Shown here: piece after piece, positions 1,552-64,000 of the stretch | Layout of the letters: the number at the start of each line of letters is the position of its first letter | How positions within the stretch are numbered: position 1 is the stretch's first letter | Assembly (NCBI RefSeq): GCF_014645315.1 | Contig: NZ_BMLQ01000010.1 | Span: 1 to 64,000 of the forward strand | DNA: 64,000 nucleotides | DNA from: Citricoccus zhacaiensis | GTDB lineage: Bacteria > Actinomycetota > Actinomycetes > Actinomycetales > Micrococcaceae | Direction: 5' to 3' | Made by a program: the position numbers and the translations under genes | Notes under the pieces: model-generated | The model's input: only the letters and a program-made list of their open reading frames with translations | The model's database searches: none | What the model was told of the DNA's origin: nothing

Positions 1552-1569
1552 AAAACCGAGGACAACATC

Positions 1570-2508: not shown

Positions 2509-2523
2509 AACGAGAAGAACCTG

Positions 2524-3552: not shown

Positions 3553-3583
3553 TATGTAGTGGTGACTTTTCAAGAGGCAGAGT

Positions 3584-3616
3584 GAGACACCCGTCCCGTG
3601 GTGGGGCGGGTGCCTC
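3584..3616 (+). terminator. Possible terminator after the aldolase
   Basis: An inverted repeat (GAGACACCCGTCCC / GGGGCGGGTGCCTC) forms a stem of about 14 bp with one mismatch and one wobble, just after the end of the hydratase-aldolase operon. No clear U-run follows, so this is a modest call. Confidence 0.4.
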
Positions 3617-3853
3617 GTGCTTCACCTCCGGGGGTCTAGTGAGTGTGTCGGTTCTTCGCGCGCGGTCAGAATGACCCTATGGGTTTGGATCAGGGCATGA
3701 AGAAGAAACCTTGATGTTCCGGTAGGGCTGTCGCGGGGCGACTCCAGGTCCTCTTGACTCGCCCATAGAAGCTGGCCGCCCAAAACACCAGGAGAGGCAA
3801 GGGCGCCTGCAGGCATCGGACGAAGCCTTTCCAACTCGTGCTTACACAAGAAT

Positions 3854-3894
3854 GGCCCGGCCGCGGCCAACTGTGGGTTGGCCGCGGCCGGGCC
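3854..3894 (-). terminator. Perfect 17-bp hairpin downstream of the dioxygenase fragment
   Basis: GGCCCGGCCGCGGCCAA is followed by a 7-nt loop and its exact reverse complement. It lies 20 bp beyond the stop of the ring-cleavage-gene fragment on the minus strand, as the related hairpin at 11284-11326 lies beyond the full-length copy. The stem sequences share their GGCCCGGCCGC core but the flanks differ. The region from 3617 to 3913 otherwise holds no gene I can support. Confidence 0.6.
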
Positions 3895-3913
3895 GTGGTG
3901 AGGGCTCTACGTT

Positions 3914-4144
3914 TTACTGGTAGACGGCGAAGGCCTTGTTGGAGTTGAAGACGTCCGTGACTACGAGGTCTGACCATTCCCTGCTCAGGCCCAGTTCCTG
4001 GACGGCGCCGAGCATGCAGAACCAGTTCAGGATCTCGTGCTGGCCGGCTTCCACGACCTCGTCGCTGGTGTAGTTGCGCATCGTCTCGAAGTCGTCCTTC
4101 AACAAGACGTCGTACATCTTCCGGTCGGCTCTAGAAGACATCAT
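3914..4144 (-). pseudogene. C-terminal fragment of the LigB-type ring-cleavage dioxygenase
   Basis: About 70 codons are open here and match the C-terminus of the full-length extradiol dioxygenase at 11346-12407, from ADRKMYD to the end FAVYQ, with one substitution (D for A). The fragment lacks the whole metal-binding N-terminal part and has no credible start: the open frame begins with a few unrelated codons. It is therefore a non-functional partial duplicate. The matching DNA stops abruptly at 4129 on its 5' side and at 3918 just inside the stop codon. It marks one edge of the P450 cassette. Confidence 0.9.
3918..4129. repeat. 212-bp direct repeat, left copy
   Basis: This segment is identical to 11350-11561 except for one base (aagacg here, aaggcg there), in the same orientation and 7.43 kb apart. 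Both ends are sharp. The two copies bracket the P450, ferredoxin, reductase, alcohol and aldehyde dehydrogenase genes and the LuxR-type regulator. Recombination between them would delete exactly that block. Confidence 0.95.
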
Positions 4145-4273
4145 CTGAGTGCTGTGGTCTCGCCTCGTAACTCTCTAAAGGTGGCCGAGCAACGGAGGGA
4201 TGGAAGGAGGGGAGGCGCCTGCCACAAGCCGTATGGCATGGCGCATTTCTCCTCCATGACTATGAACCACTAG

Positions 4274-5743
4274 CTAGCCGTTCAGTTTGTCCAGATAGAT
4301 CGTCTTGATTTCCTGGAATGAGGCCAGCCCTTCCCGCCCGAGTTCTCGGCCCAGGCCGCTGGCCTTGACGCCGCCGAACGGGGCGACGGGGTCGTTGGCG
4401 TAGCCGTTGATGCCGATCGTTCCGGTGCGCACCGTGCGGGCAAAGGCCTCGCCACGCTCCGGATCGGCCGTCCAGACCGAACCGCCGAGGCCGAAGTCCG
4501 AATCGTTGGCGATGCGGGTGGCGTCCGCCTCGTCCTGGTAGCGGATGATCGAGAGCACCGGGCCGAAGATCTCCTCCTGGGCGATGGTGGCCTTCGGATC
4601 GACATCGGCGAACACGGTGGGTTCCACGAACCAGCCTTGGTCGATGCCCTGAGGACGCCCGCCGCCGACCAGCAACCGGGCTTCTTGCTTGCCCTGGGCG
4701 ATGTATCCCTCCACCCGATCACGCTGGCGTTCGGAGACCAGCGGACCGATCTGGGTCTCCGGATCGAGGGGATCACCGACCTTCAGGCCGGAGTACAGGT
4801 CGGCCAGGGTGCCGGTCAGCTCGTCATAGCGAGAGCTTGGAACCAGCAAGCGGGTCCCGGTCCAGCAGACCTGGCCGTTGTTGATCATGGTGGCGGCGAA
4901 GAAGTCCTCGAGCTGGGAGTCGAGGTCGGCGTCGTCCAGGATGACGGCGGCGGACTTGCCACCGAGTTCCAGGGTGACGGGGCGCAGGAGTTCACCGCAG
5001 GCGGCGGCGACCTTGCGACCGGCGGCCGTCGAGCCGGTGAAGGCGACCTTGTCCACCCCGAGGTGGGACACCAGGTAGGCGCCGATCTCGCGACCGCCCG
5101 GGACGATGTTGATGATCCCTGCAGGCAGTCCTGCCGCCTCGGCGGCCTCCGCCAGCAGGAAGGCGTCCAGCACCGTCTCGAGGGAGGGCTTGAGCACCAC
5201 GGTGCAGCCGGCTGCCAGCGCCGGCGAGAGGGCCAAGAACGTGATGGCCTGCGGGACGTTCCACGGCACGATCTGGGCGACCACGCCGATGGGGCGTCGG
5301 AGCACCTTGGTCTGTTTGCCGAGCAGGCCCGGTCGGATCTCCTCCTGGGTGCTCTCCGCCAGGTCGGCGAAGTAGCGGACCAGCACGGGCGGGAAGCCCT
5401 GTTCCCACTGCTGGGCCAGCCGGATGGGCATGCCGTTCTGGATCGTGACCCGCCGCGCGGTCTCCTGGCCGCGCGCCTCGAGGGCTTGGGCGAATCGCTC
5501 GAGCGCCTCCCTCCTGCGTGAGGGGCTCCAGTGGGCCCAACCGGTGGGGTCATCGAAGGCACCGCGAGCAGCGGTGACCGCGGCGTCGACGTCGGCCTCA
5601 CGGGCCTCCGGCACACTGCCCACGCGTTCGTGGGTGGTGGCGGAGTGGACCTCGATGCGTTCCGCAGTGGCGGGCGCGGTCCATTGCCCGCCCAGGAACA
5701 GGCGGTCGTAGTCGAGGGTCTGCTGGGTGTCGACGGTGGTCAT
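4274..5743 (-). CDS. NAD(P)-dependent aldehyde dehydrogenase
   Basis: This 489-residue member of the aldehyde dehydrogenase superfamily oxidises an aldehyde to the carboxylic acid. Motifs in order are WNVPQ (cofactor/substrate entrance), the KPSLE lysine segment, FTGSTAAGRKV (nucleotide binding), LELGGKSA (general-base Glu), NNGQVCWTG (catalytic Cys near residue 292) and EEIFGPVLS. It is the last gene of the leftward operon P450-reductase-ferredoxin-alcohol dehydrogenase-aldehyde dehydrogenase. Its likely job is the third oxidation of a P450-hydroxylated methyl group, giving an aromatic acid such as p-cumate. The substrate is inferred from context only. Confidence 0.93.
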   Translation of the reverse strand: MTTVDTQQTLDYDRLFLGGQWTAPATAERIEVHSATTHERVGSVPEAREADVDAAVTAARGAFDDPTGWAHWSPSRRREALERFAQALEARGQETARRVTIQNGMPIRLAQQWEQGFPPVLVRYFADLAESTQEEIRPGLLGKQTKVLRRPIGVVAQIVPWNVPQAITFLALSPALAAGCTVVLKPSLETVLDAFLLAEAAEAAGLPAGIINIVPGGREIGAYLVSHLGVDKVAFTGSTAAGRKVAAACGELLRPVTLELGGKSAAVILDDADLDSQLEDFFAATMINNGQVCWTGTRLLVPSSRYDELTGTLADLYSGLKVGDPLDPETQIGPLVSERQRDRVEGYIAQGKQEARLLVGGGRPQGIDQGWFVEPTVFADVDPKATIAQEEIFGPVLSIIRYQDEADATRIANDSDFGLGGSVWTADPERGEAFARTVRTGTIGINGYANDPVAPFGGVKASGLGRELGREGLASFQEIKTIYLDKLNG

Positions 5744-5781
5744 GGTTTCTCCTATGACGGTGGGGCTCGGTGGGGGTGGTC

Positions 5782-6885
5782 TCAGCTGTGGGTGAGGACG
5801 ACCTTGACGGCTTGCCCGTTGGCCTGGGCGGTGACGGCCTCGTTGATCTGCTCGAACGGCATGGTGGTGATCAGCCTGTCGAAGGGGAACCGGCCCTGCT
5901 CGTACAGCGCGATTAACTCGGGGATGAAGGTGTCCGGGTCACTGTTACCCTCGACGATGCCGGTGAAGCTCAACCCGCGGGCCTGCATCTCCAACAGGTT
6001 CACGGTCAACGCCGCGGCCGGATCGGAGGGGACGCCGACCATGCCCAGGTGCCCCTGCTGCCCCATGGACGCGAGGATCTCGGTGATCACCGGACCCATG
6101 GCCGTGGTGTCCAGGACGTAGTCGACGCCCGCCGGGACAATAGCCCGGACCTGTTCGGACAGCGGGGAGGCCAGGGGGTCCACCGCGTGGGTGGCCCCGA
6201 GCTCCAGGGCCAGGTCACGGCGCTGGGGTACCGGGTCGGACACGATGATCGTCCCCACCCCCCGGGCCACGGCGCCCAGCACGCCCGACAAGCCGACGGA
6301 CCCTCCACCGGTCACCAGCAGCGACGAACCGGGCCGGGCGTCGAGCGCGTTGAGCACCGCCCCGGCCCCGGTCTGCACGCCGCAGCCCAGCGGGCCGGCC
6401 AGCTCCAGGGGAACCGACTCCGGGATATGGACGACATTGCGTTCCCGCGCCATGGCCAGGCGGGCGAACGTGGACTGGCCGAAGAACATCCCGGCGACCT
6501 GCCCGGCGTCGTTGCCCAGGGCGCTGGTGCCGTCCGGCCGGGCACCGCTGAAATTGCGCGCCATGAACTCGGCGCAGTAGGCCGGGGTCCCGCTCTCACA
6601 CTGGGCACATTCCCCGCAGCTGTTGAAGCTCGCGGCGATCCGGTCCCCCACCTTAACCTTGGTCACCCCCTCGCCGACCGCCACCACGGTCCCGCTGCCC
6701 TCGTGCCCCACGACGCCGGGGAAGGGGAAGGGCAGGTGCCCGTCCCGGACCGCCAGATCCGTGTGGCACAGCCCCACGCCGGCCACCTCGAACAGGACCT
6801 CGCCGGGGGCAGGATCGGCGATCTCCAGCTCCTGGAGGGTGAAATCGCTCCCTTGGGACTCGAGAACGGCGGCCGTGGTCTTCAT
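5782..6885 (-). CDS. Zinc-dependent alcohol dehydrogenase, aryl/benzyl-alcohol type
   Basis: This is a 367-residue medium-chain dehydrogenase. The catalytic zinc site shows LCHTD and GHEGSG. The structural zinc lobe has four cysteines in CGECAQCESGTPAYC. The NAD-binding turn is GGGSVG, followed by VSDP, in which the Asp favours NAD. The overall pattern resembles XylB-like benzyl-alcohol dehydrogenases. It sits between the ferredoxin and the aldehyde dehydrogenase and probably oxidises the P450 product alcohol to the aldehyde. A 14-bp G-rich tandem repeat separates it from the ferredoxin gene. Confidence 0.93.
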   Translation of the reverse strand: MKTTAAVLESQGSDFTLQELEIADPAPGEVLFEVAGVGLCHTDLAVRDGHLPFPFPGVVGHEGSGTVVAVGEGVTKVKVGDRIAASFNSCGECAQCESGTPAYCAEFMARNFSGARPDGTSALGNDAGQVAGMFFGQSTFARLAMARERNVVHIPESVPLELAGPLGCGVQTGAGAVLNALDARPGSSLLVTGGGSVGLSGVLGAVARGVGTIIVSDPVPQRRDLALELGATHAVDPLASPLSEQVRAIVPAGVDYVLDTTAMGPVITEILASMGQQGHLGMVGVPSDPAAALTVNLLEMQARGLSFTGIVEGNSDPDTFIPELIALYEQGRFPFDRLITTMPFEQINEAVTAQANGQAVKVVLTHS

Positions 6886-6910
6886 GTGGACTCCTTGACG
6901 GTGGGTCGGG

Positions 6911-6952
6911 ATGGGTGGGTCTGGATGGGTGGGTCTGGATGGGTGGGTCTAG
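6911..6952. repeat. Three tandem 14-bp G-rich units
   Basis: The unit ATGGGTGGGTCTGG occurs three times head to tail (the last ends TCTAG), flanked by further GGGTCGGGATGGG. The plus strand fits a G-quadruplex pattern (GGG with loops of 1-2 nt). The genes here are read from the minus strand, so the G-rich strand is the transcription template. It lies in the 83-nt gap between the ferredoxin and alcohol dehydrogenase genes, where most other junctions in this operon are short. Confidence 0.85.
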
Positions 6953-6968
6953 GGATGGGATGCGTGGG

Positions 6969-7289
6969 TCAACCGTTGGAGGTGGAGACCCGCACGCGGG
7001 CACCCTCACAGGCCTCGGACACGATGAGCTGGCACGAGAGCCTGGAGTTCGGGGCGGCATCATCGAGGAACTCGACGAGGTCGGTCTCCTCGGTCATCGC
7101 GTCGTCGAACGCGCCCTCCGGAGCATGTTCCAGGAACACGTGGCAGGTGGCGCAGGAGCAGCTGCCGCCGCATTCGGCGACGATGCCGGGCAGGTTGTTA
7201 CGCACCGAACCGTCCATGACGGACTGGCCGCAGGGCACGTCCATCTGCTGTTCGGTTCCGTCCGGGAGGACATAGGTGATGGTGGGCAT
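6969..7289 (-). CDS. [2Fe-2S] ferredoxin, putidaredoxin type
   Basis: This 106-residue plant/vertebrate-type ferredoxin carries electrons from the neighbouring FAD reductase to the P450. The cluster ligands are Cys40, Cys46 and Cys49 (ECGGSCSCATC, CX5CX2C spacing) and Cys86 (RLSCQL), as in putidaredoxin and adrenodoxin. The frame is open further upstream, but ATG 7289 gives the usual short N-terminus (MPTITYVLPDG). It lies between the reductase (about 60 nt upstream) and the alcohol dehydrogenase. The set P450-reductase-ferredoxin is a complete class I P450 system. Confidence 0.95.
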   Translation of the reverse strand: MPTITYVLPDGTEQQMDVPCGQSVMDGSVRNNLPGIVAECGGSCSCATCHVFLEHAPEGAFDDAMTEETDLVEFLDDAAPNSRLSCQLIVSEACEGARVRVSTSNG

Positions 7290-52148: not shown

Positions 52149-52183
52149 GGCGTTTCGTGAGGGTGTTCGCCCGGGGCTTCAGG

Positions 52184-52200
52184 TTAGCCTGTGACAGGAT
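52184..52200. promoter_or_regulatory. 17-bp palindromic site upstream of parA (right copy)
   Basis: TTAGCCTGTGACAGGAT matches the site at 47101-47117 in 16 of 17 bases. It lies 164 bp upstream of the parA start. Together the two copies flank the replication gene and both nonamer blocks, consistent with one regulator acting on both partition and RHH genes, or with a paired DNA site such as a partition or handling site. Confidence 0.6.
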
Positions 52201-52363
52201 CGCGCTCGTGGACGATCGGGCCGCAGCCGCGGTGCCGGTCTCGGGCCAGCCGATCTTGCCCCGTCGTAGCCGGACGACCGGGGAGCGGCATTGTTCTGCA
52301 GTGCCTGCCCCCTGCCTCCAGCTGCCCGCGCCGGGGACCTACCAGCAGGAGTGGAGGCACCGC

Positions 52364-53170
52364 GTGAGCCGAGTGATCGCCGTGTGCAACCAGAAGGGCG
52401 GCGTGGGCAAGACCACCGTGGCCGTCGGCTTGGCCGAGGTCTACGCCCTGCATGAGGGCAAGAAGGTGCTCCTCATTGACGCCGACCCGCAACGCAACGC
52501 CACCAGTGCTCTGGCCGTCACTGACCCGGAGTTCACCCTCAACGACGTGATCTACGGCGACCCGGACAACAACTTCCGCGTCCCGGCCGGTGCCGCAGCA
52601 GACGCCATCACCGAAGCCGGGGAGGCCTGGCAAATCGGCAAAGCCGCACCCCACGTCATCGCTGCCGAACGGCACCTGGCAGCCCGGGAACGGGACCAGA
52701 TGCTGGCCCGGGAGTTCCGACTGCGCTCGGCCCTGTCCGGGGTCTCGGAGCTGTACGACATCGTCATCATCGACGCCCCGCCGTCGCTGGGCATGCTCAC
52801 GGTCAACGCTTTGACCGCGGCCGACTGGTCCATCCTGGTCACCGAGCCGCGAGCCTCCTCCTTCGAAGGCATCGGTGAGATCGCCAAGACCATGGTCGAG
52901 GTCTCGGAAGCGTTCAATGAGAACCTTCAGGTGGCCGGCATCGTTCTGAATCGCCTCCGTCGAGGACTGCGCGACCAAGAGAACTGGGCGCTGAAGATTA
53001 GGAACACCTACGGCGACGCCGTGGTCGAACCCTCGCTGCCGGCCCGTGAGGCTTTCGCGCTGGCCCATGCCGAGGCTCGCCCGCTGATGAGCTACGGCAG
53101 ATCAGCCAACACCTCGCTTGAGCCCATGAAACTGGTAGCCCGTCGTATCTGGGAGGGGAGCAACTCGTGA
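52364..53170 (+). CDS. parA: ParA-family partition ATPase
   Basis: This 268-residue type Ia/Ib-like ATPase has AVCNQKGGVGKTTVAVGLAE (deviant Walker A), LLIDADPQRNATSAL (Walker A') and YDIVIIDAPPSLGMLTVNAL (Walker B). It segregates plasmid copies by nucleoid gradients together with a centromere-binding partner. GTG 52364 has GGAGTGGAGG upstream; the frame is open to 52157 but the extra 69 codons have no features. It overlaps the next gene by 4 nt. A matching centromere is expected nearby; the nonamer block immediately upstream is a candidate. Confidence 0.94.
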   Translation: MSRVIAVCNQKGGVGKTTVAVGLAEVYALHEGKKVLLIDADPQRNATSALAVTDPEFTLNDVIYGDPDNNFRVPAGAAADAITEAGEAWQIGKAAPHVIAAERHLAARERDQMLAREFRLRSALSGVSELYDIVIIDAPPSLGMLTVNALTAADWSILVTEPRASSFEGIGEIAKTMVEVSEAFNENLQVAGIVLNRLRRGLRDQENWALKIRNTYGDAVVEPSLPAREAFALAHAEARPLMSYGRSANTSLEPMKLVARRIWEGSNS

Positions 53171-53736
53171 GCCGGTCAGACAACGTGTCGAGAGGCAGCG
53201 GGGGAGAGGACGGCGCCAACGCCCTCAAATCACTGCGCCGCGTCGGCCTGAAGAAGGCCCGCTCCACCTCCGTGGTCAACGACCTGGTTGCGGGGGAGTC
53301 AGCGGCCGCCGAAGAGGCATCGAATGCACCTGCGCCGGTGGTGACGGACAAGACTGCGAAGACGCCGGCAGCACCTGACTCGGTGCAGCCGGCACCTGTC
53401 GAGCCCGCCCCGTTAGCACCCCCTGCGACCCCGGAGCCGACTCTGATGCCGCCGCCGACACAGGACCAGCAGTCGACACCGGCACCGACTGCGGTGTCTG
53501 AGACAGCGGAGGAGAAGCCGCGGAAGGTGACGTTCTACCAGGACAACGAGCAGCGTCTGCGTGCTCGAGCGGCTTACGTGCACACCATTCCGGTCACCGG
53601 AGCGACCAGCTGGTCGGACTTCATCGCCCGTGCGGTGGAGCGCGAAACCCTCCGCTTGGAGGCCGCCTACAACGACGGGGAACCTTTCACGCAGATGCCG
53701 GGCATGGTGCGCCGAGGTCGGCCGTTCTCTTCTTGA
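53167..53736 (+). CDS. ParB-like centromere-binding partner
   Basis: This 189-residue protein is coupled to parA (GTGA overlap). The N-terminal part (KSLRRVGLKKARSTSVVND) is basic, the middle 70 residues are Pro/Ala/Thr-rich and disordered, and the C-terminal 75 residues (VTFYQDNEQRLRARAAYVHT, SWSDFIARAVERETLRLE) look like the ribbon-helix-helix C-terminal domain of actinobacterial plasmid ParB proteins. It would bind the partition site and activate ParA. Confidence 0.88.
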   Translation: MSRSDNVSRGSGGEDGANALKSLRRVGLKKARSTSVVNDLVAGESAAAEEASNAPAPVVTDKTAKTPAAPDSVQPAPVEPAPLAPPATPEPTLMPPPTQDQQSTPAPTAVSETAEEKPRKVTFYQDNEQRLRARAAYVHTIPVTGATSWSDFIARAVERETLRLEAAYNDGEPFTQMPGMVRRGRPFSS

Positions 53737-55475: not shown

Positions 55476-56242
55476 CTAGGAACCCTGCACGGTCTGGATC
55501 AACTCCGGCCCGTTGTTGCGCACGTTGCCTACGGCGGTCCCGACCTCGGTCAGGGTCCATGTTGAGGCGGTCCGGTAGGCCTGGTTCCGGACCTCCTCGA
55601 CCAGTGTTTCGGCCTCGTCTGCGGACGCTAGCTTCTCGGGCTTCAGCCAGGTGTCCATGGTGTCCCGGTCCATGGGCAGGGGTAGGCGGTCGTGCAGGCC
55701 GGCCAGTTGCTCCAAGGTCGGCTCGTCGGTGCCGGCCTCGGGGGAGGGGCCGGTGAGGATTGTGCAGCTCAGGAGCCACCGGCCCTCATCGTCCTCCGCG
55801 GCTGCTGGGTCTTTCCACCATTCGTAGAGCCCGGCGAAGTAGATCGGCGAGCCGTCGGCGGGGCGAACGAAGAAGGGCCGCTTCGGTGTGCCCTTGGGCG
55901 CATCGGCGGTCGGTTTGAGCCATTCGTAGTACCCATCGACCGGGACTGCGCATCGTCTGGCCTTCACGGCCGCGCGAAAGGTTGGTTTCGTGGAGACGGT
56001 TTCCGAGCGGGCGTTGAAGGCTCTCGAGCCGACGGCGATGTCCTTGGCCCACGGTGGGACCAGGCCCCACCGGGCCACGTGGATCTCCCTGCGTGTCTGT
56101 GCCTCGGCGGCCCGTTCTAGGACGATGGGAACCTCGCTGGTCGGTGCAACGTTCCATTTCGGACGGAGTACCAGCTCTTCCTCGGGCTCGACCGCACCGG
56201 CGTCTGCTACCAGGTCGCCGAGGGTGTCGGGAAACGGAATTA
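55476..56242 (-). pseudogene. SRAP (YedK/HMCES-type) gene lacking its 5' end
   Basis: Text of an SOS-response-associated peptidase/abasic-site crosslinker is open over about 255 codons: LGDLVADAGAVEP, RPKWNVAPTSEVPIV, RWGLVPPWAKD, FNARSET, RCAVPVDGYYEW, CTILTGP and LHDRLPLPM. The family's first residues, MCGR with catalytic Cys2, are absent. Upstream of IPFPDTLGDLV the frame continues as unrelated KRKR codons that belong to the end of the neighbouring recombinase-like gene. An ATG at 56078 would give only a truncated 200-residue protein without Cys2 and the first active-site strand, so it is scored as broken. Confidence 0.82.
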
Positions 56243-57706
56243 TTCGTTTGCGTTTAATTGCCCGTGTTCGCTTGCTCGCAGCTCCGGGTAGATGCCCCAG
56301 TTGGCACTGGTGTCGATGGCATGTCGTAGTGCTGTCTCTACGGCGACGCCCGTGACGTCCGCTACGATGCTCGCTGGGAGTACTTGAGCGAGCTGATCAA
56401 GTCGGGCGCGCTTCATTTCTCGGGCATTAATACCCTGTCTGGCCAGGTGAAGGGCGACACCGCCCTCGCTCGTGTGCTGGTGGGGCATCGTGCCATCAAA
56501 GAGCCATCCGGACGGCTCTCCAACGTATGGCTGCCGGGCACGCGTCTCGTCGAGATGTCTTCGAAGGAGATCGGTGATGGGCGCAGGAAGCTCGATCGGT
56601 GTGCTGCCGAACTTGAGCGAGAAGACCTCTCCGTTGCGGTGGATGTCCTCGAGTCGCAGGCGAACGGAGTCTCGGATCGGTTGAGCGAACACCAGCAGGA
56701 GCAGGCCGATGATGCGGCTCGGCAACGGTGTGGATTCGTCGTTCAGAAGTCCGTCGACCTTGTCCCAGACCACGTCTTCGGGAATGGGGGCCGGAGGCGG
56801 GGAGGGCTGCTTTCGGGGCACGCGGAGCCGGGTCGTGATCCGGTTCCGCACGGCCCAGTTGAGGAAGCTCGCGAGTGTTTTGTGTCGGTCGTGCCGGGAC
56901 AGGTAGTGGTCGAGGGTGACTTGTTCGAGCGAAGCGAGGGGTTGCCCGTGGTTGTCGAGCCAGGTGAGAAACGCGACGATCTTGCGGATCTCGGCGGTGC
57001 GGGTGTTGACGACGCCCGCGCTGATGGGCTGGCCGCCTGTTCGTCGCCGCAGCCTTCGGAGGATTTCCCAGTTGAAGTACCGGGTAATGATGGCGGCATG
57101 GGCAGGTGGAATGCTTCCTGTGAGAGCCTTCGTGCGTAGCTCCAGGTCGTTCAATCGGACGTCGATGTTGGGGAGTGTTCCCGAGCTGATCAGCATGTGC
57201 CGGAAGTATCGGACGCGGGTGGATTGCGGAAGCTCGTTGAGGGTGTGGTGGCTGACTGGCTTCTTGCCCTGGGCCATGTCGCGGAGAGTGCGGTCGATGG
57301 GTTCGTGGCGCAGCCATCGAGTGGCCGAGCGGGGGTCCCGGGCGGTGAGGAGATGCTCGCGGAGGGGAGCGAGTTCCGGGTGGATCTGGCCTGTGGTGTC
57401 GGAGAGGACATCGCCTAACCGGTCCTCCAGGCGGCATCGCCCGCAGTGCGAGCCGGTGAGGTGCTGTTCGCTGCCGCAGGTGGCGCATCCGAACCTCGAG
57501 GGAACGCCGGCGCACGCAGCGCACACGACGAGGCCATCTGGTGACCGGAACGCCAGGACCTTGGTCTGTGCGCAGGCCGGGCACGCCGAGGCGTTCCAGC
57601 GGAGCCTGGTGTAGCAGGCATTGCAGATTCGTTGTTCGAGGATTTCGTACCGGGCCTCGACATGCCGGCGGCATGAGTCGCACTGGGGCTTCCACGTGGT
57701 GCTCAT
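56240..57706 (-). CDS. Zinc-ribbon, tyrosine-recombinase-like protein without catalytic residues
   Basis: This 488-residue protein starts with several CxxC pairs (CDSCRRH, CNACYTRL, CPACAQTK, CAACAG, CATCGSEQH, CGRCRL) over residues 9-95, i.e. three or four zinc ribbons. A helical SAM-like domain follows (TAEIRKIVAFLTWLDNHGQP), and then a region aligned in outline with a phage integrase catalytic domain (LLLVFAQPIRDSVRLRLEDI). The HxxR and GH motifs and the final Tyr pattern are missing. It is last in a three-gene unit with an HTH protein and an intact integrase. It may be a DNA-binding or target-choosing partner. Confidence 0.8.
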   Translation of the reverse strand: MSTTWKPQCDSCRRHVEARYEILEQRICNACYTRLRWNASACPACAQTKVLAFRSPDGLVVCAACAGVPSRFGCATCGSEQHLTGSHCGRCRLEDRLGDVLSDTTGQIHPELAPLREHLLTARDPRSATRWLRHEPIDRTLRDMAQGKKPVSHHTLNELPQSTRVRYFRHMLISSGTLPNIDVRLNDLELRTKALTGSIPPAHAAIITRYFNWEILRRLRRRTGGQPISAGVVNTRTAEIRKIVAFLTWLDNHGQPLASLEQVTLDHYLSRHDRHKTLASFLNWAVRNRITTRLRVPRKQPSPPPAPIPEDVVWDKVDGLLNDESTPLPSRIIGLLLLVFAQPIRDSVRLRLEDIHRNGEVFSLKFGSTPIELPAPITDLLRRHLDETRARQPYVGEPSGWLFDGTMPHQHTSEGGVALHLARQGINAREMKRARLDQLAQVLPASIVADVTGVAVETALRHAIDTSANWGIYPELRASEHGQLNANE

Positions 57707-57722
57707 CTTTGTTGCGGTCGGG

Positions 57723-58070
57723 TCAGTCGGTCAGGCGGTGCAGTTTCGCGGGGATCGGTCGCAGTGCGCCGATGGCGGGACCGGCGCTCCGCGGCTCGCC
57801 TGCTGCTCGGCGGTTTCCGCAGGATGCGGCCGGGGCCACCTCGATGAGGTCGTTGGGTGTGCAGTCGAGGATTCGGCACAAGGCGGCGAGGACCTCGACG
57901 TTCAGGCGCTCCGGGGTCTTGGATACGAGGCGATAGATCTGCTCACGGGACAGCTGCACGCCCTGTTCTCGGAGCGGTTCGATGAGGTCGGTGGTTTGGA
58001 ACATCCCGGCGGCGGCCATGACTTGTCGGAGCTGCCAGGTGATGGGGTTGTCGTCAGCGGTTGTGGGCAT
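57723..58070 (-). CDS. Small XRE-like helix-turn-helix protein
   Basis: This 115-residue protein has an HTH core, MFQTTDLIEPLREQGVQLSR, EQIYRLVSKTPERLNVEVLA, ALCRILDCTPNDLIEV, and a basic tail. ATG 58070 has GGAGGAA upstream and overlaps the integrase end by 17 nt. This pattern (DNA-binding domain plus late CxxxxDLI) matches Cro/XRE-type regulators such as the YozG group. It is the middle gene of the recombinase trio and probably represses or directs it. Confidence 0.88.
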   Translation of the reverse strand: MPTTADDNPITWQLRQVMAAAGMFQTTDLIEPLREQGVQLSREQIYRLVSKTPERLNVEVLAALCRILDCTPNDLIEVAPAASCGNRRAAGEPRSAGPAIGALRPIPAKLHRLTD

Positions 58071-59169
58071 CGTTTCCTCCGTAGATTCGGGACAGTGCTC
58101 GAGTGACCATGCGTGTCTTGTAGTCGTCGCCGACCGAGGTGTAGATCGCGGTGGTCGACGCGTACGCGTGGCCGACCTGGTCCTGGACGAACTTCTCGGA
58201 GTAGCCCCACTCGATGAGATTGGTGACGTAAGTGTGGCGCAGTGCGTGCACGCTGAGCTCCGAGGGCAGCCCCAGCTGGTCGCGGATCGTCGCGAACCGC
58301 AGGTCGATGTATCGGAGACTGACACGGCTTCCCCGCTCCGTGGGCCAGAGCTTCCCGGTTGGCTCGTCGGTGCAGCGGGGGCGGGCCTGGTCTACCCACT
58401 GCGCCAGCCCCTCGGTCACCCAACCGAGCTCGGGAACGGTGAGGACTGAGCGCCGGCGCGGCCCGGATCCCCGCGTGCCCTTGCCCCACCTGGCCTCGAC
58501 GGCGCCGAAGCGCCCGAATCTGGGTGCGGCTCCGTTGGGTCGCAGGTCTGCCACGTCGAGGCCGACCGCCTCCGCCCGACGCAGCCCATAGGCGTAGATC
58601 GTCTTGAAGATCTGCGCATCGCGCAGGGCCGCCAGAGCGCCCTTGCGGCCCTGGGCGAGGATGGACTCGACTCGGGCGTCCGCTGCGGTGAAGAACTGCT
58701 CGAGCTCGTCGTAGGTGAGTGCCCGTCTCTGCGCGCGTCCCTCATAGTCCACCAGGTGCGCGGTGGTGTTCCACACGTGGCAGATCTGTTGGGGAGCCGA
58801 CGCGAAGCGTCGCTCACACTCGCGAGCCCACTCGTAGCGTCCGTCGCAGAGGTAGTCGCAAAAGAGACGGATGATCGTCTGGAACGCACGGATAGTCGAT
58901 TTCGCCGCGGGGCGCGCCTTTGACTTTGCACGAGTCGTGTAGTCCTCGACGTCGACCGGGGCCCATTCCCACGGGTACCTCTCCGTGAAGCTCTCGAACC
59001 GCCTGATGGCCAGAATCCTGTTGCGGATCGTTGGTGTGGCCAGTCCGCGGCTGGACTGCTGATCGCTCCAGCCGGTGAGCATCGCCTCGTAGACGAACTG
59101 CTTTTCGTCCAGCGCACGCACGTTGCCGAGCAGTCGAAGGGCGGTCGCGCCACCGGTATTGGGGTCCAC
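58054..59169 (-). CDS. Tyrosine recombinase/integrase
   Basis: This 371-residue integrase has an N-terminal SAM-like core-binding domain (residues 20-140) and a full catalytic set: YAYGLRRAEAVGLDV (Arg I), WGKGTRG (Lys), HALRHTYVTNL (HxxR), VGHAYASTTAIYTSV (GH and nucleophile Tyr). GTG 59169 is the start; no strong Shine-Dalgarno is seen, and the true start may be leaderless. A perfect 17-bp palindrome lies 20 bp upstream. It heads the trio with the XRE-like and zinc-ribbon proteins and would mobilise that unit. Confidence 0.93.
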   Translation of the reverse strand: MDPNTGGATALRLLGNVRALDEKQFVYEAMLTGWSDQQSSRGLATPTIRNRILAIRRFESFTERYPWEWAPVDVEDYTTRAKSKARPAAKSTIRAFQTIIRLFCDYLCDGRYEWARECERRFASAPQQICHVWNTTAHLVDYEGRAQRRALTYDELEQFFTAADARVESILAQGRKGALAALRDAQIFKTIYAYGLRRAEAVGLDVADLRPNGAAPRFGRFGAVEARWGKGTRGSGPRRRSVLTVPELGWVTEGLAQWVDQARPRCTDEPTGKLWPTERGSRVSLRYIDLRFATIRDQLGLPSELSVHALRHTYVTNLIEWGYSEKFVQDQVGHAYASTTAIYTSVGDDYKTRMVTRALSRIYGGNDAHNR

Positions 59170-59188
59170 ACGGCAAGTATTGCATTAG

Positions 59189-59205
59189 ATGCATCATTGA
59201 TGCAT
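59189..59205. promoter_or_regulatory. Perfect 17-bp palindrome upstream of the integrase
   Basis: ATGCATCA-T-TGATGCAT lies 20 bp upstream of the integrase start, with an additional TGCATTAG on one side. It could be the operator of the XRE-like protein, or the core crossover site of the recombinase at the element's end. I did not find a second copy at the other end near 56240. Confidence 0.6.
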
Positions 59206-59241
59206 TCGCTACGGCGGCGTGTTAGGCAAGAGGGGAGGGTT

Positions 59242-59410
59242 ATTGCGTGTCTGGCGTGCCGCGCGCGATGAGGCGCAGATCGTCATGGCCGTCCTTGATG
59301 TCCCAGTCCACGAACGCGCAGCAGCGTCGTTCGACCGCGACGAGCTCTCGCAGCCGCCGGATTGAGTCCTCGACCTTGGCGTAGGGGACGGTGAGTTGCG
59401 TCGACCGAAC
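59242..59410 (-). pseudogene. C-terminal gene fragment next to the recombinase element
   Basis: A frame ending at the stop 59242-59244 reads QLTVPYAKVEDSIRRLRELV, then ERRCCAFVDWDIKDGHDDL and LIARGTPD. It is protein-like, resembling the RCC-F motif of small proteins encoded near metal-responsive regulators. It has no start and runs into non-coding text upstream. It is the remains of a gene cut by the rearrangements here. The exact family is not established. The remaining 177 bp up to the pst promoter hold the operator-like repeats described next. Confidence 0.5.
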
Positions 59411-59461
59411 TCGGCATGCCTGTCTTGATGACTAGTTGGGTCGTGCTGGCCCTAGGGTATA

Positions 59462-59534
59462 CATAGACAAACATCTATGATCTATTCAATGGGCGACTCC
59501 CGTTCACCTTTCGTTCATATAGACAGCCTTCTAT
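59462..59534. promoter_or_regulatory. Two copies of ATAGA-N6-TCTAT in the pst promoter region
   Basis: ATAGACAAACATCTAT (59463-59478) and ATAGACAGCCTTCTAT (59519-59534) are inverted repeats with identical 5-bp arms and 6-bp spacers; their centres are 56 bp apart, roughly five helical turns. They flank the PHO box. They look like operators for a dimeric repressor, for example ArsR-like, possibly left over from the gene truncated upstream. Confidence 0.55.
59502..59519 (+). promoter_or_regulatory. PHO box (PhoP site) of the pst operon
   Basis: GTTCACCTTTCGTTCATA holds two direct units, GTTCACC and GTTCATA, exactly 11 bp apart. This is the Streptomyces-type PHO box (11-nt direct repeats with GTTCACC core). 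It lies 69-86 bp upstream of the pstS start, the right place for phosphate-starvation activation of the operon. Confidence 0.75.
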
Positions 59535-59587
59535 GAATGCGGCGCGTCGTTTGCGTCTCATCCCCGCATCTAGAAAGGCTTTCCTCC

Positions 59588-60574
59588 GTGAAGAATGCTC
59601 TCAGGGGCCGTACCGGCCTGGCTGTCCTAGGAATCTCCGCTTTGTTGCTGACCGGTTGCGGCAATGCCGGTTCCGCTGACGACACTTCTCCGGCCGCGGG
59701 CGGGTCCGCCGCTGCCGAGGGTGGTACCTCAGGTGACGTGGCGGTGGACGGTTCCTCCACCGTTGCCCCGCTGTCCGAGGCCGCTGCCGAGCAGTACCGC
59801 ACGAGCAACGATGCGGTGAACGTGTCGGTGGCCACCTCGGGCACCGGTGGTGGTTTCCAGAAGTTCTGCGCCGGCGAGACTGACATCTCGAACGCTTCCC
59901 GTCCCATTGACGAGGAGGAGATGGCACAGTGCGAGTCCAACGGGATCGAGTACACCGAGGTCATCATGGCCAATGATGGTCTGTCCGTGGTTGCTAACCC
60001 GGCCAACGACTGGGCTCAGTGCCTGACTGTCGAGCAGCTGCAGACCATCTGGGGCCCGGAGTCCGAGGGCGAGGTCATGTCCTGGTCCGACGTGGACCCG
60101 TCATTCCCGGATGAGCCGCTGGATCTTTATGGTGCCGGCACCGACTCGGGCACCTTCGACTACTTCACCGAAGCCATCAACGGTGAGGAGGGCGCCATCC
60201 GGACCGACTACTCCCCGTCCGAGGATGACAATGTCACTGTGCAGGGCGTGTCCGGCTCCGCCGGCGCGCTGGGCTTCCTGGGCCTGTCCTACGCCATGGA
60301 GAACCCCGACACGCTGAAGCTGATCGACGTGGACGGCGGCGAGGGTTGCATCACACCGTCGGAGGAGACCGTCCAGGACGAGTCCTACCAGCCGCTGGGC
60401 CGCCCGCTATTCATCTACGTGGCCAACGCCTCCTACCAGGACAAGTCGCAGGTCCAGGACTTCGTGGACTTCTACGTGGAGAACTCCACGGAGATCGCCG
60501 AGGCCGCCCAGTTCATCGGACTGACCGAGGAGCAGACGCAGACGGCCCAGGACCAGCTCGCCGAGCTGAACTGA
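59588..60574 (+). CDS. pstS: Phosphate-binding lipoprotein PstS
   Basis: This 328-residue protein has a lipoprotein signal peptide (hydrophobic VLGISALLLTG then Cys in LTGC). It carries typical phosphate-binding text: DGSSTVAPLSEAA, SVATSGTGGGFQKFC, ISNASRPI and GAGTDSGTFDYF. The GTG start 59588 has an AAAGG box; an earlier open frame exists but lacks a signal peptide in register. It binds phosphate outside the cell and delivers it to PstCA. It heads the operon pstSCAB behind a PHO box. Confidence 0.96.
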   Translation: MKNALRGRTGLAVLGISALLLTGCGNAGSADDTSPAAGGSAAAEGGTSGDVAVDGSSTVAPLSEAAAEQYRTSNDAVNVSVATSGTGGGFQKFCAGETDISNASRPIDEEEMAQCESNGIEYTEVIMANDGLSVVANPANDWAQCLTVEQLQTIWGPESEGEVMSWSDVDPSFPDEPLDLYGAGTDSGTFDYFTEAINGEEGAIRTDYSPSEDDNVTVQGVSGSAGALGFLGLSYAMENPDTLKLIDVDGGEGCITPSEETVQDESYQPLGRPLFIYVANASYQDKSQVQDFVDFYVENSTEIAEAAQFIGLTEEQTQTAQDQLAELN

Positions 60575-60597
60575 TCGCCCGAAGGATCGTACGCATC

Positions 60598-61554
60598 GTG
60601 AGTATCACCACAACCCGGGGGACGGCAGCAGCAGCTCTGTCGTCCCCCACGGGGTCCCGTCATTTCAAGGCCAAGTCCCGCCCGGGGGAACGCGTCATCA
60701 TCTGGGCCCTGCGGTTCGCGGCACTGCTGACGGTCGCCACCACCGTCGGCATCGTGGTCTCCCTGGTCGTTCCCGCGGTGGAGTTCTTTACCGAGATCAA
60801 CGTCGGGGACTTCCTGTTCGGGGACCGATGGGCTCCACGATTCGCCGAGGCGTCCTTCGGCGTCCTGCCGCTGATCACAGCAACGGCATGGACCACGGGC
60901 ATTTCACTGCTCGTGGCAGTTCCCCTGGGATTGGGGGCGGCTATCTACCTGTCCGAGTACGCCCGGCCACGGGTGCGCAAGGTACTCAAGCCCGTGCTCG
61001 AGGTGCTGGCGGGCATCCCGACGGTGGTATACGGATTGTTCGCTCTGACCTTCGTGCAGTCGGTGGTCTTCAAGCAGTGGCTCGAACTGCCGACCGGGGC
61101 CTTCAGCGTGCTCGCGGCCGGCCTGGTCATGGGCGTGATGATCGTCCCGACCATCGCCTCGATCTCCGAAGACGCCCTCTCGGCCGTGCCGATGTCCCTG
61201 CGGCAAGGCTCGGCGGCGCTGGGCGCCAACCGCATGCAGACCTCGCTGAAGATCGTCGTGCCGGCAGCGGTGTCCGGAATCGTCGCGGCCGTCGTGCTCG
61301 GAGTGTCACGGGCGATCGGCGAGACGATGATCGTGGCCATGGCCGCCGGCCAGCAGGCCCGGATGGTTGCTGGTCCGCTGGAGCAGGGCCAGACAATGAC
61401 CGGTTTCATGGCCAGTGCCGCCCTGGGCGACTCCCGGGTCGGATCACTGGAGTACAACACGCTCTTCGCGGTGGGGCTTCTGCTGTTCGCCCTGACCCTG
61501 GTGGTCAACATGATCAGCATCCAGATCGTCCGCCGCCTCAGGAAGGCCTACTGA
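60598..61554 (+). CDS. pstC: Phosphate ABC transporter permease PstC
   Basis: This 318-residue membrane protein has six predicted helices and the permease EAA-type loop (LRQGSAALGANRMQTSLKIV). The motif EVLAGIPTVVYGLFAL is typical of PstC/PstA. The GTG start 60598 with GAAGGA upstream was chosen; the long open frame before it overlaps pstS. The stop overlaps the pstA start (TGATG). It forms the channel with PstA. Confidence 0.95.
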   Translation: MSITTTRGTAAAALSSPTGSRHFKAKSRPGERVIIWALRFAALLTVATTVGIVVSLVVPAVEFFTEINVGDFLFGDRWAPRFAEASFGVLPLITATAWTTGISLLVAVPLGLGAAIYLSEYARPRVRKVLKPVLEVLAGIPTVVYGLFALTFVQSVVFKQWLELPTGAFSVLAAGLVMGVMIVPTIASISEDALSAVPMSLRQGSAALGANRMQTSLKIVVPAAVSGIVAAVVLGVSRAIGETMIVAMAAGQQARMVAGPLEQGQTMTGFMASAALGDSRVGSLEYNTLFAVGLLLFALTLVVNMISIQIVRRLRKAY

Positions 61555-62474
61555 TGAGCAGTACTGCACACCGGACCTCCCCGGCCCCGAAGACCTCCCG
61601 CGGACTGAAGCAGACCGGCTTCTTCCAGGGTGAGCGCTCCCCAGCCGCACTGGTAGTGCTGTTCGCCCTGTGGGCCTGTCTGGCCTTCGCCGTACTGTTC
61701 CTGCTGGTGCTGCTGGTCACGACATTCCTGGACGGACGCGAGATGTTCTCCTGGCACCTGATCACGGACTATGCCTCCTCCGACCCGGAGCAGGCCGGGG
61801 CCCGCGCGGCGATCCTGGGCTCGGTCTGGGTCATCGCCACCACGGCGGTGATGACGATTCCCATCGGAGTAGCCGCAGCCGTCTACATGGAGGAGTTCGC
61901 CGACCACAACAAGTGGTGGAACCGGGCCATCGAGGTCAACGTCCAGAACCTGGCGGCGGTCCCGTCAATCATCTACGGCCTGGTGACCCTCGGGGTGCTC
62001 ACCGCACTGAACATCGTCCAGCGCAACATCGTCATTGCCGGGGCCATCGCGCTGAGCCTGTTAATCCTGCCGGTCGTCATCGTCGCCACCCGCGAGGCCA
62101 TCCGAAGCGTGCCGAACGAGATCCGTCAGGGATCCCTGGCCTTGGGGGCCACGCAGTGGCAGACCACCTGGCGGCAGGTGCTGCCCTCCTCGGTGCCCGG
62201 CATCGCCACCGGCTCCATCCTGGCCCTGTCGCGGGCGATGGGCGAGGCTGCACCGCTGCTGGTCCTCGGAGCGCTGGTCTTCGTCACGTTCGACCCCACG
62301 AGCATCTTCGACCAGTTCTCCACGATGCCGATCCAGACCTTCAACTGGGCCTCCCGCCCCCAGGAGGAGTTCCATCAACTGGCGTCGGCCACCAGCATCC
62401 TGCTGCTGGTCCTGCTGCTGGCGATGAACGCCGTGGCCATCACGATCCGAAACATCTACGAGAAGCGTTGGTGA
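61554..62474 (+). CDS. pstA: Phosphate ABC transporter permease PstA
   Basis: This 306-residue permease has six helices, the conserved [18 protein letters not shown] segment and an EAA loop ([20 protein letters not shown]). ATG 61554 overlaps the pstC stop by one base; the longer open frame upstream is noise inside pstC. It is the partner of PstC. Confidence 0.95.
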
Positions 62475-62475
62475 C

Positions 62476-63348
62476 ATGAACAACACAATGCCCGCAGCCC
62501 CCGCCACCGACGACGTGGCCGCCCATCTCGGTGAGTCGTCACCGGGCACCCACCTGGAGCGGCCCGACAACCCGATCATGGCCTGCGAGGATGTCGACAT
62601 CTTCTACGGCGATTTCAAGGCCGTCTCGAACGTGTCGCTTCAGTTCGGCTTCAATGAAATCACCGCCCTGATCGGGCCCTCCGGGTGTGGCAAGTCCACG
62701 GTCCTTCGCTCGCTCAACCGGATGAACGACCTCATTGAGGGGGCCCGGGTCGAGGGGACCATCACTTTCCGGGGCGAGGAGATCTACGGCAAGAAGGTCG
62801 ACCCCATCGAGGTCCGGCGCCGGATCGGGATGGTGTTCCAGAAGGCCAACCCTTTCCCGAAGTCGATCTACGACAACGTCGCCTACGGCCCCCGGGTCTC
62901 CGGCATGAAGGTCGAGAGCATGGACGAGCTGGTGGAGAGTTCCCTGAGGGCAGCCGCCCTGTGGGACGAGGTCAAGGACAAGCTCAAAGACTCCGGGCTG
63001 GGCCTGTCCGGGGGCCAGCAGCAGCGCCTGTGCATTGCCCGGACCATCGCCGTGCGTCCGGATGTGATCCTGATGGATGAGCCCTGTTCGTCGCTGGATC
63101 CGATCGCCACGTTGCGCATTGAGGATCTAATGCACGAGCTCAAGCAGGATTTCTCCATCGTCATCGTGACTCACAACATGCAGCAGGCGGCCCGGGTCGC
63201 GGATCGGACCGCGTTCTTCACGGCGCTTTCGGCCGAGGGCTCCGGTGACCGGACCGGCGTGCTTGTCGAGTACGCCCCGACGCGGAAGATCTTCGACGAC
63301 CCGGCCGACCAGCGGACGGAGGACTACGTCTCTGGGCGCTTCGGATGA
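62476..63348 (+). CDS. pstB: Phosphate ABC transporter ATP-binding protein PstB
   Basis: This 290-residue ATPase has Walker [10 protein letters not shown] (residues 67-75), the Q-loop FQKANPF, the signature LSGGQQQRL, and Walker [16 protein letters not shown] followed by the switch His in IVTHNMQQA. The N-terminal 30 residues are a non-conserved extension. It powers PstCA. The ATG starts one base after the pstA stop codon. Confidence 0.96.
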
Positions 63349-64000
63349 CCACCGCAGTGCACCCGCACCGCACCGCTGGCGCCCATCGCCCAGATCTGGT
63401 CATGGCGCTGTCCGGGATCCTCCGCGTCCTGGTCGTCGGCAACCCGGACCAGGTCCTGGAAGGCACCGACGACGAGCACCTCGCCGCCGGGCTGGAGGTG
63501 TTCACCGCAGCCGACGGGTCAGCCGGGCTGCTGATGGCTGGAGAGCTCAAACCGGACCTTGTCGTGGCCCATGCCGAGCTGGGCGGCGTCGACGTCGTGG
63601 CCTTCGTGTCGGCGGTGCGGCGCTGGTCCTTGGTTCCCGTCCTGGTCACCATTCCAGCGCAGACCGGGTCCGTGGACACGGCCTTCCGAGTGCTGGAGGC
63701 CGGCGCCAATGGCCTGTGCCACGGAATCTTGGATGCCCGCCGTCTGGTCGAGGTGGCCGGCCGGACCCTACCCCGACGGCCGGGACGGTCACGCCGGCTG
63801 ATCCTGGGTCCCTTGGTCCTGGACTGCGGGTCCATGGTGCTCAGCGGCGAGCAAGGCCAAACCCAGCTGAGCGTCAAGGAATATCTGGTGCTGGTGGAGC
63901 TGATGTCCGCCAGTCCGCAGATCCGCACCGCCGCCGAGCTCGTCGAAGCCGGCGGCTTCCCCCAACGCCAGCAGTCCAAGGCCCTGCCGGTCACCATCGG
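63345..64000 (+). CDS. OmpR-like regulator with atypical receiver (partial, runs off window)
   Basis: From ATG 63345, overlapping the pstB stop (ATGA), a frame of more than 218 codons runs to the window end. The N-terminal half has receiver-like order: [55 protein letters not shown]. The phosphoacceptor Asp position (usual LVLLD) holds His in LVVAH, and the usual Thr and Lys positions are not evident. A linker follows, then the start of a winged helix ([31 protein letters not shown]). It is probably an OmpR-type phosphate-linked regulator not controlled by classic phosphorylation. Confidence 0.75.

Follow-up and report, generated by a model that had tools for sequence, protein, structure and literature searches.

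Tn554 inserts in radC. According to the parts of their published descriptions available here, which underlie all comparisons made below, Tn554, the strand-biased circularizing integrative elements (SEs) and the GInt elements share a design idea: an integrase operon at one end of the element, a catalytically dead partner protein in SEs and GInts, and the absence of target duplication in Tn554 (PMC10214605, PMC5385486). SEs carry the operon intA-tfp-intB-srap, and their surveys list Gammaproteobacteria only (PMC10214605). We have analysed 64,000 nucleotides of Citricoccus zhacaiensis (assembly GCF_014645315.1, contig NZ_BMLQ01000010.1, positions 1-64,000 of the forward strand; ‘the window’) that carry three adjoining genes, for a tyrosine recombinase (Int), a helix-turn-helix (HTH) protein and a protein with zinc ribbons and a recombinase fold (ZnR). 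Judging from sequence comparison, this trio very likely (probability about 0.87) serves a family of site-specific integrative elements in Actinomycetota as integration/excision module, and the copy in the window splits a gene of the SRAP (YedK/HMCES) type. The srap gene of SEs encodes an SE protein and is distinct from the SRAP repair domain targeted here.

The trio element shares features with described systems. In SEs the integrases are encoded in an operon at one end, accompanied by Tfp, a protein of recombinase fold without the RHRY catalytic residues, and by a small extra protein; SEs also have cargo and target specificity (PMC10214605). GInts (ginABCD) also have integrase genes at one end, carry cargo and insert into genes at the 5′ end; among their proteins, GinC is without catalytic residues and GinD is small and HLH-like (PMC5385486). 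Tn554 combines three genes, site-specific insertion, no target duplication and imperfect inverted repeats at its ends (PMC10214605), and RIT elements are likewise built on a three-gene recombinase module (PMC8138268, PMC10214605).

The genes of the trio lie on one strand (Table 1); int overlaps the HTH gene by 17 nt, and the HTH stop is separated from the ZnR start by 16 nt. All 11 homologs in an alignment of Int, three of them nearly identical, have its catalytic set (R197, K230, H308, R311, H334 and Y343) without change. The order int-HTH-ZnR on one strand was found in all of the 37 loci examined, i.e. 24 loci with wide flanks (four on plasmids and 20 of 35 places in related genomes) and 13 loci from a scan of genome contigs; this count leaves out locus L027 and most fragmentary places among the 35. 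Loci and genomes are designated by L and G numbers. L050 and L084 are one locus; only a part of int was covered in L051, L081 and L082, and int or ZnR was in pieces in L064, L067-L069, L078, L085, L086, L087 and L088. Thus, an earlier note on this DNA, which described an intact tyrosine recombinase and an XRE-like protein in an operon-like unit of overlapping or abutting genes and proposed searching genomes for the trio as a unit, was borne out.

What the trio belongs to became visible in comparison with relatives. The own element occupies G000:C10:56225-74438 (18,214 bp), which is far larger than the trio, and interrupts the SRAP gene at codon 10, after nt 28; the insertion falls shortly after the codon of Cys2, presumably the catalytic cysteine of SRAP. 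Genome G023 and plasmids from Microbacterium, Rhodococcus and Arthrobacter likewise have a start-less SRAP gene directly after ZnR; for the Arthrobacter plasmid, the absent start (MCGRFVIAG) sits upstream of int. The sister genome G005 carries the same island (97.7% identical to the window over 28882-60178 and 100% over 60177-64000), with the SRAP start ∼16.7 kb upstream of int; from this position the own 5′ half was expected near contig ∼74.5 kb, and it was then located at 74466. The own 5′ side matched an intact SRAP gene in G005 over 327 columns (88.7% identical), the match covering the first 28 nt and the DNA that precedes them. In the further-out DNA of the G023, Rhodococcus and Microbacterium copies the missing SRAP start was recovered in three of three cases. 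A scan for SRAP starts in the flanks of L076, L077, L079, L086 and L087 gave no match within the DNA scanned; the L086 start (MCASYG) does not fit the SRAP-start pattern and was read separately.

Empty-site homologs were available for two copies: the intact SRAP gene L035 for the own copy (89.6% identical over 739 columns) and pAAG24-152 (L075) for the Arthrobacter copy (88.2% identical over 671 columns). Defining the ends from empty sites, as had been suggested earlier, was therefore practicable, and where a fixed chromosomal place without insertion boundaries had been named as the outcome that would speak against an element, boundaries exist. The only match common to both ends of the own copy is the 5-nt CCCGA. 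The description of both flanks as broken genes stood for the left flank in the window, an SRAP gene without its first 28 nt, and not for the right one, where the remnant open reading frame lies within the element. Unoccupied intact SRAP genes with target DNA are present in the own genome at G000:C10:108563-109291 and G000:C9:187-963.

One could also take the trio for a system of plasmid or chromosome maintenance (Xer-like multimer resolution), or for a fixed regulatory operon with SRAP as operon partner. The best NCBIfam matches of Int are XerC/XerD-type models, though far below cut-off; ZnR relatives were found in 239 of 72,556 plasmid records, mostly of Streptomyces (104) and Rhodococcus (56); parA- and parB-like genes (Pfam) lie at 52157-53736, in a conjugation/plasmid-type region; and SRAP parts directly follow ZnR in L002, L003, L004 and L007/L050. 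These SRAP parts, however, are without their first 28 nt, which sit across the element, and SRAP as a conserved operon partner was rejected because the 5′ halves lie beyond the element. Empty sites exist, and a near-identical element is present in three different genes (see below), so that we regard maintenance or fixed regulation as highly improbable in comparison with an integrative element.

Across relatives, left ends of the element read G-N5-GCATTATT or variants of it, with the left junction placed six bases before the GCATTA-like word, and right ends read CCGACA, CCGACT, CCAACA, CCAGTA or TCGAAC. All eight SRAP insertions in the left-end list break the gene after nt 28, and L086 makes a ninth. 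At L086:8046-8300 a left end interrupts an SRAP-type start (MCASYGLD) at nt 28, with another SRAP-like frame ∼50 nt on; this arrangement possibly reflects a rearrangement or what is left of a second element.

A single element (99.4-99.9% identical) occurs in L005, L083, L080, L081 and L082. Its hosts are a Cys-rich DUF326-like gene in L005, a UvrD-like helicase gene in L083, entered in the opposite direction (both genes named by reading their translations), and SRAP genes, of which L080 (left) and L081 (right) represent the two sides. When the flanks are joined, in L005 as in L083, an open frame results, with zero bases lost or duplicated. In the three targets the right end CCGACA (L005, L083 and L081) and the left end GACCAA (L005, L083 and L080) are identical; a common donor of these copies could explain the identical end bases. 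A 6-bp footprint of the SE/Tn554 kind was looked for in the three targets (L005, L083 and L080/L081) and not seen. The L083 copy, in Microbacterium saccharophilum, has a nested insertion of ∼5 kb within the L005-type element (L083:12144-17212).

Target DNA outside SRAP genes reads CTGTGCGGACGTTTGCG in L005, ATATGTGGCTGGTTCG in L083 and TTGTGCGGCTGTCTCG in L079, the last of which was counted for its left end only. When a profile built from the eight SRAP sites was used to rank the 28-mers of each locus, the actual target came 13th of 26,814 in L005, third of 42,814 in L083 and first of 42,772 in L079; with the first 16 positions alone the ranks were 4, 1 and 38, respectively. In our reading, what the machinery would recognise is not the gene as such but the MCGRF-coding DNA, which lies on one side of the insertion point at a distance of ∼12-28 nt.

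A search was also made with a junction pattern (SRAP start, 19 free bases, GMATTA), which was partly drawn from the own genome and G023. Among 396 genomes of the order there were four matches (the own genome, G023, G600 and G690), while the reversed control pattern gave none. In G600 the trio lies between the junction and the SRAP remainder, ∼8.7 kb on, with Int 78% and ZnR 58% identical. G600 and G690 thus provide two further junctions at nt 28, but they are not independent, because the search pattern itself prescribes this distance. The downstream SRAP parts of both genomes have no start of their own in the stretch searched and are preceded by similar DNA (AATAATTCT...ATGCC...CCCCGG), so that their SRAP genes are split on two sides.

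Several observations weigh against the reading of the trio as an integration module. The support for mobility is comparative only; no movement was observed. Joining the left 28 nt with the right part restored the SRAP frame in eight of eight cases (one retaining a nonsense codon), but partly by construction, as the right junctions of L003, L002 and L088 were placed with the frame in mind; the other right junctions were set by homologs or identical elements, and for L084 the resemblance to the own copy was used. A single insertion event probably underlies both L004 and L085, frameshifts seem to be present in trio genes of L085 and L088, and L051, L076, L077, L078 and L082 stand outside the target counts, one end not having been found. 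The scores of the non-SRAP targets (5.0, 10.7 and 9.5) are far below those of SRAP sites (22.7-34.3). In G690 the SRAP remainder follows 6.1 kb on in a split gene without detectable trio; the locus has the family end sequences and is perhaps a decayed or trio-less element. Among 394 genomes of the whole class only the own genome matched the junction pattern, hence SRAP-targeting members are rare. Finally, ZnR is overall less conserved (mean pairwise identity 0.44-0.50) than Int (0.69), and the roles given to the HTH protein and ZnR are drawn from fold, order and conservation only.

As to the distribution of the trio, ZnR relatives were found in 21 of 99 related genomes and in 8 of 296 phylum-wide genomes (E-value 10−20; the own genome is in both counts). 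None was present in 50,697 phage records, and none was found in viral contigs within reach of the pattern scan. The scan of genome contigs with a single protein as query gave no match, whereas the alignment-based scan gave the 13 loci counted above. In distant trio lineages no SRAP gene adjoins and the left-end pattern was not found. Two copies of one such lineage (L052:4734-7988 and L069:4492-7727) are 92.8% identical and have shared ends of their own, TTAGCGTGAATTTCCG... and ...GTTACCAGTA; they adjoin different genes, one being the start of a Tn3-type transposase by reading. G005 has a second, distant ZnR relative (L027, G005:C1:3648549-3649940), 28% identical and ∼39 kb from the first. In the Microbacterium plasmid L100 (NZ_CP012698.1 17000-57000) Int is split into residues 1-307 (85% identical) and 298-371 (89%); the ∼25 kb that separate the two parts contain trpS, metabolic genes and two copies of IS21.

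ZnR has 12 cysteines in six CxxC pairs (C9/12, 28/31, 42/45, 62/65, 74/77 and 88/91), invariant in alignments of six and of eight close relatives; these make three zinc ribbons, where three to four had been proposed. In a wider alignment of 29 rows, 10 of these cysteines are each conserved in 25-28 rows, C9 in 21 and C12 in 20; three of the rows (L089, L090 and L092) are mis-framed and were not counted as evidence. Pfam gave nothing above cut-off for ZnR, with sub-threshold double-zinc-ribbon matches only and none over the remainder; there was no significant match in a sequence search of the PDB and no match in PHROGs or PADLOC. An AlphaFold2 model (mean pLDDT 77, pTM 0.48) was compared with known structures. 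Foldseek aligned its residues ∼200-475 with tyrosine recombinases, led by XerA (5hxy, E-value 2.4e-4) and XerH (5jjv, 2.7e-4) with TM-scores by query of 0.26-0.30; in VIA the top match was XerH 5jjv (Z 13.8, 250 residues, rmsd 7.3), and the best 50 VIA matches were, by title, tyrosine recombinases and type IB topoisomerases. The R, H and Y of the catalytic set were not conserved at the expected places in the alignment of 29 relatives, read by eye, so the earlier description of a degenerate, catalytically dead recombinase domain is upheld, and a look for a conserved catalytic set that might have been misread found none overlooked. Profile comparison of ZnR with the own Int detected no sequence relation; the relationship of the two proteins is therefore one of fold.

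Could Int alone suffice, with ZnR a repressor, a silencer or a relic carried along? Besides having no conserved catalytic residues, ZnR is weakly conserved in its fold region (mean pairwise identity 0.37-0.44), and its gene is spread over two reading frames in L085 and broken in two in L086. Still, ZnR is present in every one of the 37 trio loci, including the near-cargo-free L004, which retains it within 3475 bp, and the cysteines are kept as described. The zinc region (0.63-0.65) is nearly as conserved as Int and the fold region far less, which suggests that the zinc part does constrained work. We consider a dispensable or merely repressing ZnR improbable.

With this the differences from described systems can be stated. 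Like Tfp, ZnR is a recombinase-fold protein without RHRY; SEs, however, have two active recombinases in the order intA-tfp-intB-srap and a 6-bp footprint beside the right motif that changes with the donor site, while the trio has one RHRY recombinase, the order int-HTH-ZnR and the same six end bases in three targets (PMC10214605). GInts have four genes, three of them for putative integrases, against three genes in the trio, one of which encodes the HTH protein; their imperfect direct repeats of 10-11 nt contrast with the unduplicated L005/L083 flanks and with own ends that share CCCGA only, and the part of their description at hand reports other hosts and does not mention zinc ribbons (PMC5385486). 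In Tn554, known from Staphylococcus/Enterococcus, TnpA and TnpB are both RHRY recombinases, accompanied by TnpC, and there is a 6-bp footprint, while in the trio only Int has the catalytic set (PMC10214605). RIT elements encode three recombinases (RitA, RitB and RitC), unlike the trio with its single active recombinase, 115-aa HTH_26 protein as second gene product and dead ZnR. The dusA-targeting integrative islands have a different target gene, and the portion of their description seen mentions no trio. For the Gamma-mobile-trio (GMT), the GmtY NCBIfam model gave 13.7 bits at a cut-off of 340. Own transfer or replication genes, as expected of integrative and conjugative elements (ICEs) and their actinomycete counterparts (AICEs), were not found: L004, L085 and L088 barely exceed the trio, and the cargo of the own 18.2-kb element was read in part. 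A literature search, with most subscription journals outside its coverage, found no description of the trio or of SRAP-targeting elements.

It is possible that the trio descends from the SE/GInt/Tn554 class, reduced by loss of a second active recombinase. The operon at one end, the dead recombinase-fold protein (Tfp or GinC), the small DNA-binding protein and the cargo would fit, as would the choice of the 5′ part of a gene for insertion, known from GInt, and the lack of target duplication (Tn554) (PMC10214605, PMC5385486). We find this descent unlikely, although less so than a dispensable ZnR, given one RHRY recombinase in place of two, the absence of a variable 6-bp footprint in the three targets of one element and the restriction of SEs to Gammaproteobacteria in the surveys (PMC10214605); Tfp, GinC, TnpB and TnpC were compared by description only. 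The trio element stands apart from SE, GInt and Tn554 in that a single recombinase is active, the dead partner has three zinc ribbons and the end bases do not differ between three targets: by analogy it would work as they do, yet it belongs under none of them and differs from the published descriptions.

The palindrome near the start of int (Table 1) is exact, as had been noted, and 0.01 such palindromes would be expected per window even when two mismatches are allowed; its core pattern TGCAWCAWTGWTGCA occurs a single time in the genome. Eleven of 14 rows of the close clade have the motif TGCA[AT]CAATG[AT]TGCA upstream of the int start used, at a distance of 35-41 nt; in the other three, near variants were seen by eye. 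Among the 14 rows, L005, L080 and L083 are one element; L002, L051, L081, L082 and L086 were left out for want of a usable int start. In the 17 distant-clade rows the strict motif was absent, which makes the palindrome a feature of the own clade. The suggestion that the palindrome is the recombination site was not sustained: its distance is kept to the int start and not to the element ends, which are 3 kb (right) and 15 kb (left) away. For the same reason it is best read as a promoter/operator of the trio, with the HTH protein as the natural candidate binder. Of palindrome-like sequence at the ends, for which the earlier note suggested looking, the half-site GATGCA was seen: 8 of 10 rows (six of eight distinct elements) have it ∼20 nt in from the left end, and the same HTH protein may act at it.

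The following mechanism can be proposed. Comparison of the copies shows that the element inserts after nt 28 of SRAP genes with fixed ends, target bases being neither duplicated nor deleted, and that it can also use non-SRAP sites that resemble the MCGRF-coding start of SRAP; its module travels with variable cargo (arsenic, phosphate) or with almost none (3.5-4.1 kb). Int would perform all strand cleavage. The HTH protein would bind the TGATGCA palindrome and control the operon, and probably bind the half-site near the left end as well, and ZnR would be a DNA-binding architectural partner, most likely seated in the synaptic complex on a single arm, be it that of the target or that of the right end. 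The last six bases of the element would stay with it on insertion, and an excised circle would join the own ends as CCCGACA followed by GTCTGAGCATTA. In the best-resolved copies no junction sequence is common to target and element, thus the exchange seems not to need the usual core identity. The suggestion of the earlier note that the zinc-ribbon protein picks the target or docks the active enzyme may hold. One could speculate further, with more doubt than confidence, that ZnR is a dedicated target reader of MCGRF-coding DNA which docks one active Int, exchange proceeding without a shared core and with the six end bases kept.

Table 1. Coordinates of features of the element and of its SRAP target (window positions unless indicated otherwise)
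Feature	Coordinates	Strand	Basis or remark
3′ part of SRAP (YedK/HMCES) target, resumes at nt 29	55476-56224	minus	Pfam SRAP 2.1e-55
Part of the 18,214-bp element within the window	56225-64000	.	junction comparison
Right terminus of element, TTCCGTTTCCCGACA; element ends at 56225	56225-56239	minus	empty-site comparison
ZnR, 488 aa, three zinc ribbons and tyrosine-recombinase fold	56240-57706	minus	CxxC pairs, AlphaFold2 model
HTH protein, Cro/C1-type, 115 aa	57723-58070	minus	Pfam HTH_26 E=3.2e-15
Int, tyrosine recombinase, 371 aa	58054-59169	minus	GTG start; Pfam Phage_integrase E=4.3e-17
Palindrome ATGCATCATTGATGCAT, within a TGCANCAATGATGCA...TGCAA motif that precedes int in close relatives	59189-59205	.	
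Degenerate remnant open reading frame, inside element, just upstream of trio	59283-59474	minus	similar remnant DNA upstream of L076 int by eye
pstS-like phosphate-binding protein, cargo	59537-60574	plus	by reading translation
pstC-like ABC transporter permease, cargo	60640-61554	plus	Pfam BPD_transp_1
pstA-like second permease, cargo	61554-62474	plus	by reading translation; start approximate
pstB-like ABC transporter ATPase, cargo	62476-63348	plus	Pfam ABC_tran
5′ part of SRAP target, nt 1-28	contig 74439-74466, beyond window		found near position expected from G005
Trio-less split SRAP of G690 with family end sequences	L106 (G690:C1:600500-620000), 951-7000		

The own cargo includes pst-like genes between the trio and the left end, two of the four being confirmed by Pfam, and an arsenic-type set: an ArsR-type regulator, low-molecular-weight phosphatase/arsenate-reductase proteins and an SBF-family transporter (ACR3-like by reading). 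Enzymes of the pyridine-nucleotide-disulphide-oxidoreductase type and a major facilitator superfamily transporter are further cargo. The Rhodococcus copy carries arsB, arsC, arsD and arsA along with mercury genes. At the other extreme, L004 (3475 bp), L085 (3962 bp) and L088 (4138 bp) have little beyond the trio. In the G005 copy of the island (L037) pstS has an insertion of ∼1.4 kb (G005:C1:3604412-3605797) absent from the own copy.

The region that hosts the SRAP gene (window 26825-55261) is of conjugation/plasmid type, with relaxase-, VirD4- and VirB4-like translations by reading. A gene for a Y-family polymerase (umuC-type) stands beside the SRAP 5′ half (L070:11740-13062, contig ∼74.7-76.1 kb), and in the Microbacterium plasmid a umuD/Y-polymerase pair is near the SRAP gene.

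A DNA-repair gene (SRAP/HMCES) is shown here to be hit repeatedly by insertions. The target motif, an empty site and the exact ends are now available for actinobacterial elements that carry arsenic and other metal resistance on plasmids and chromosomes. The trio, with its natural 3.5-kb version, offers a simple three-gene system for asking what dead recombinases do, a question open also for Tfp and GinC. If ZnR were indeed a target reader, the tyrosine-recombinase system would consist of two subunits, ‘reader plus cutter’, for which a conserved string of active-site codons would serve as a landing pad across species.

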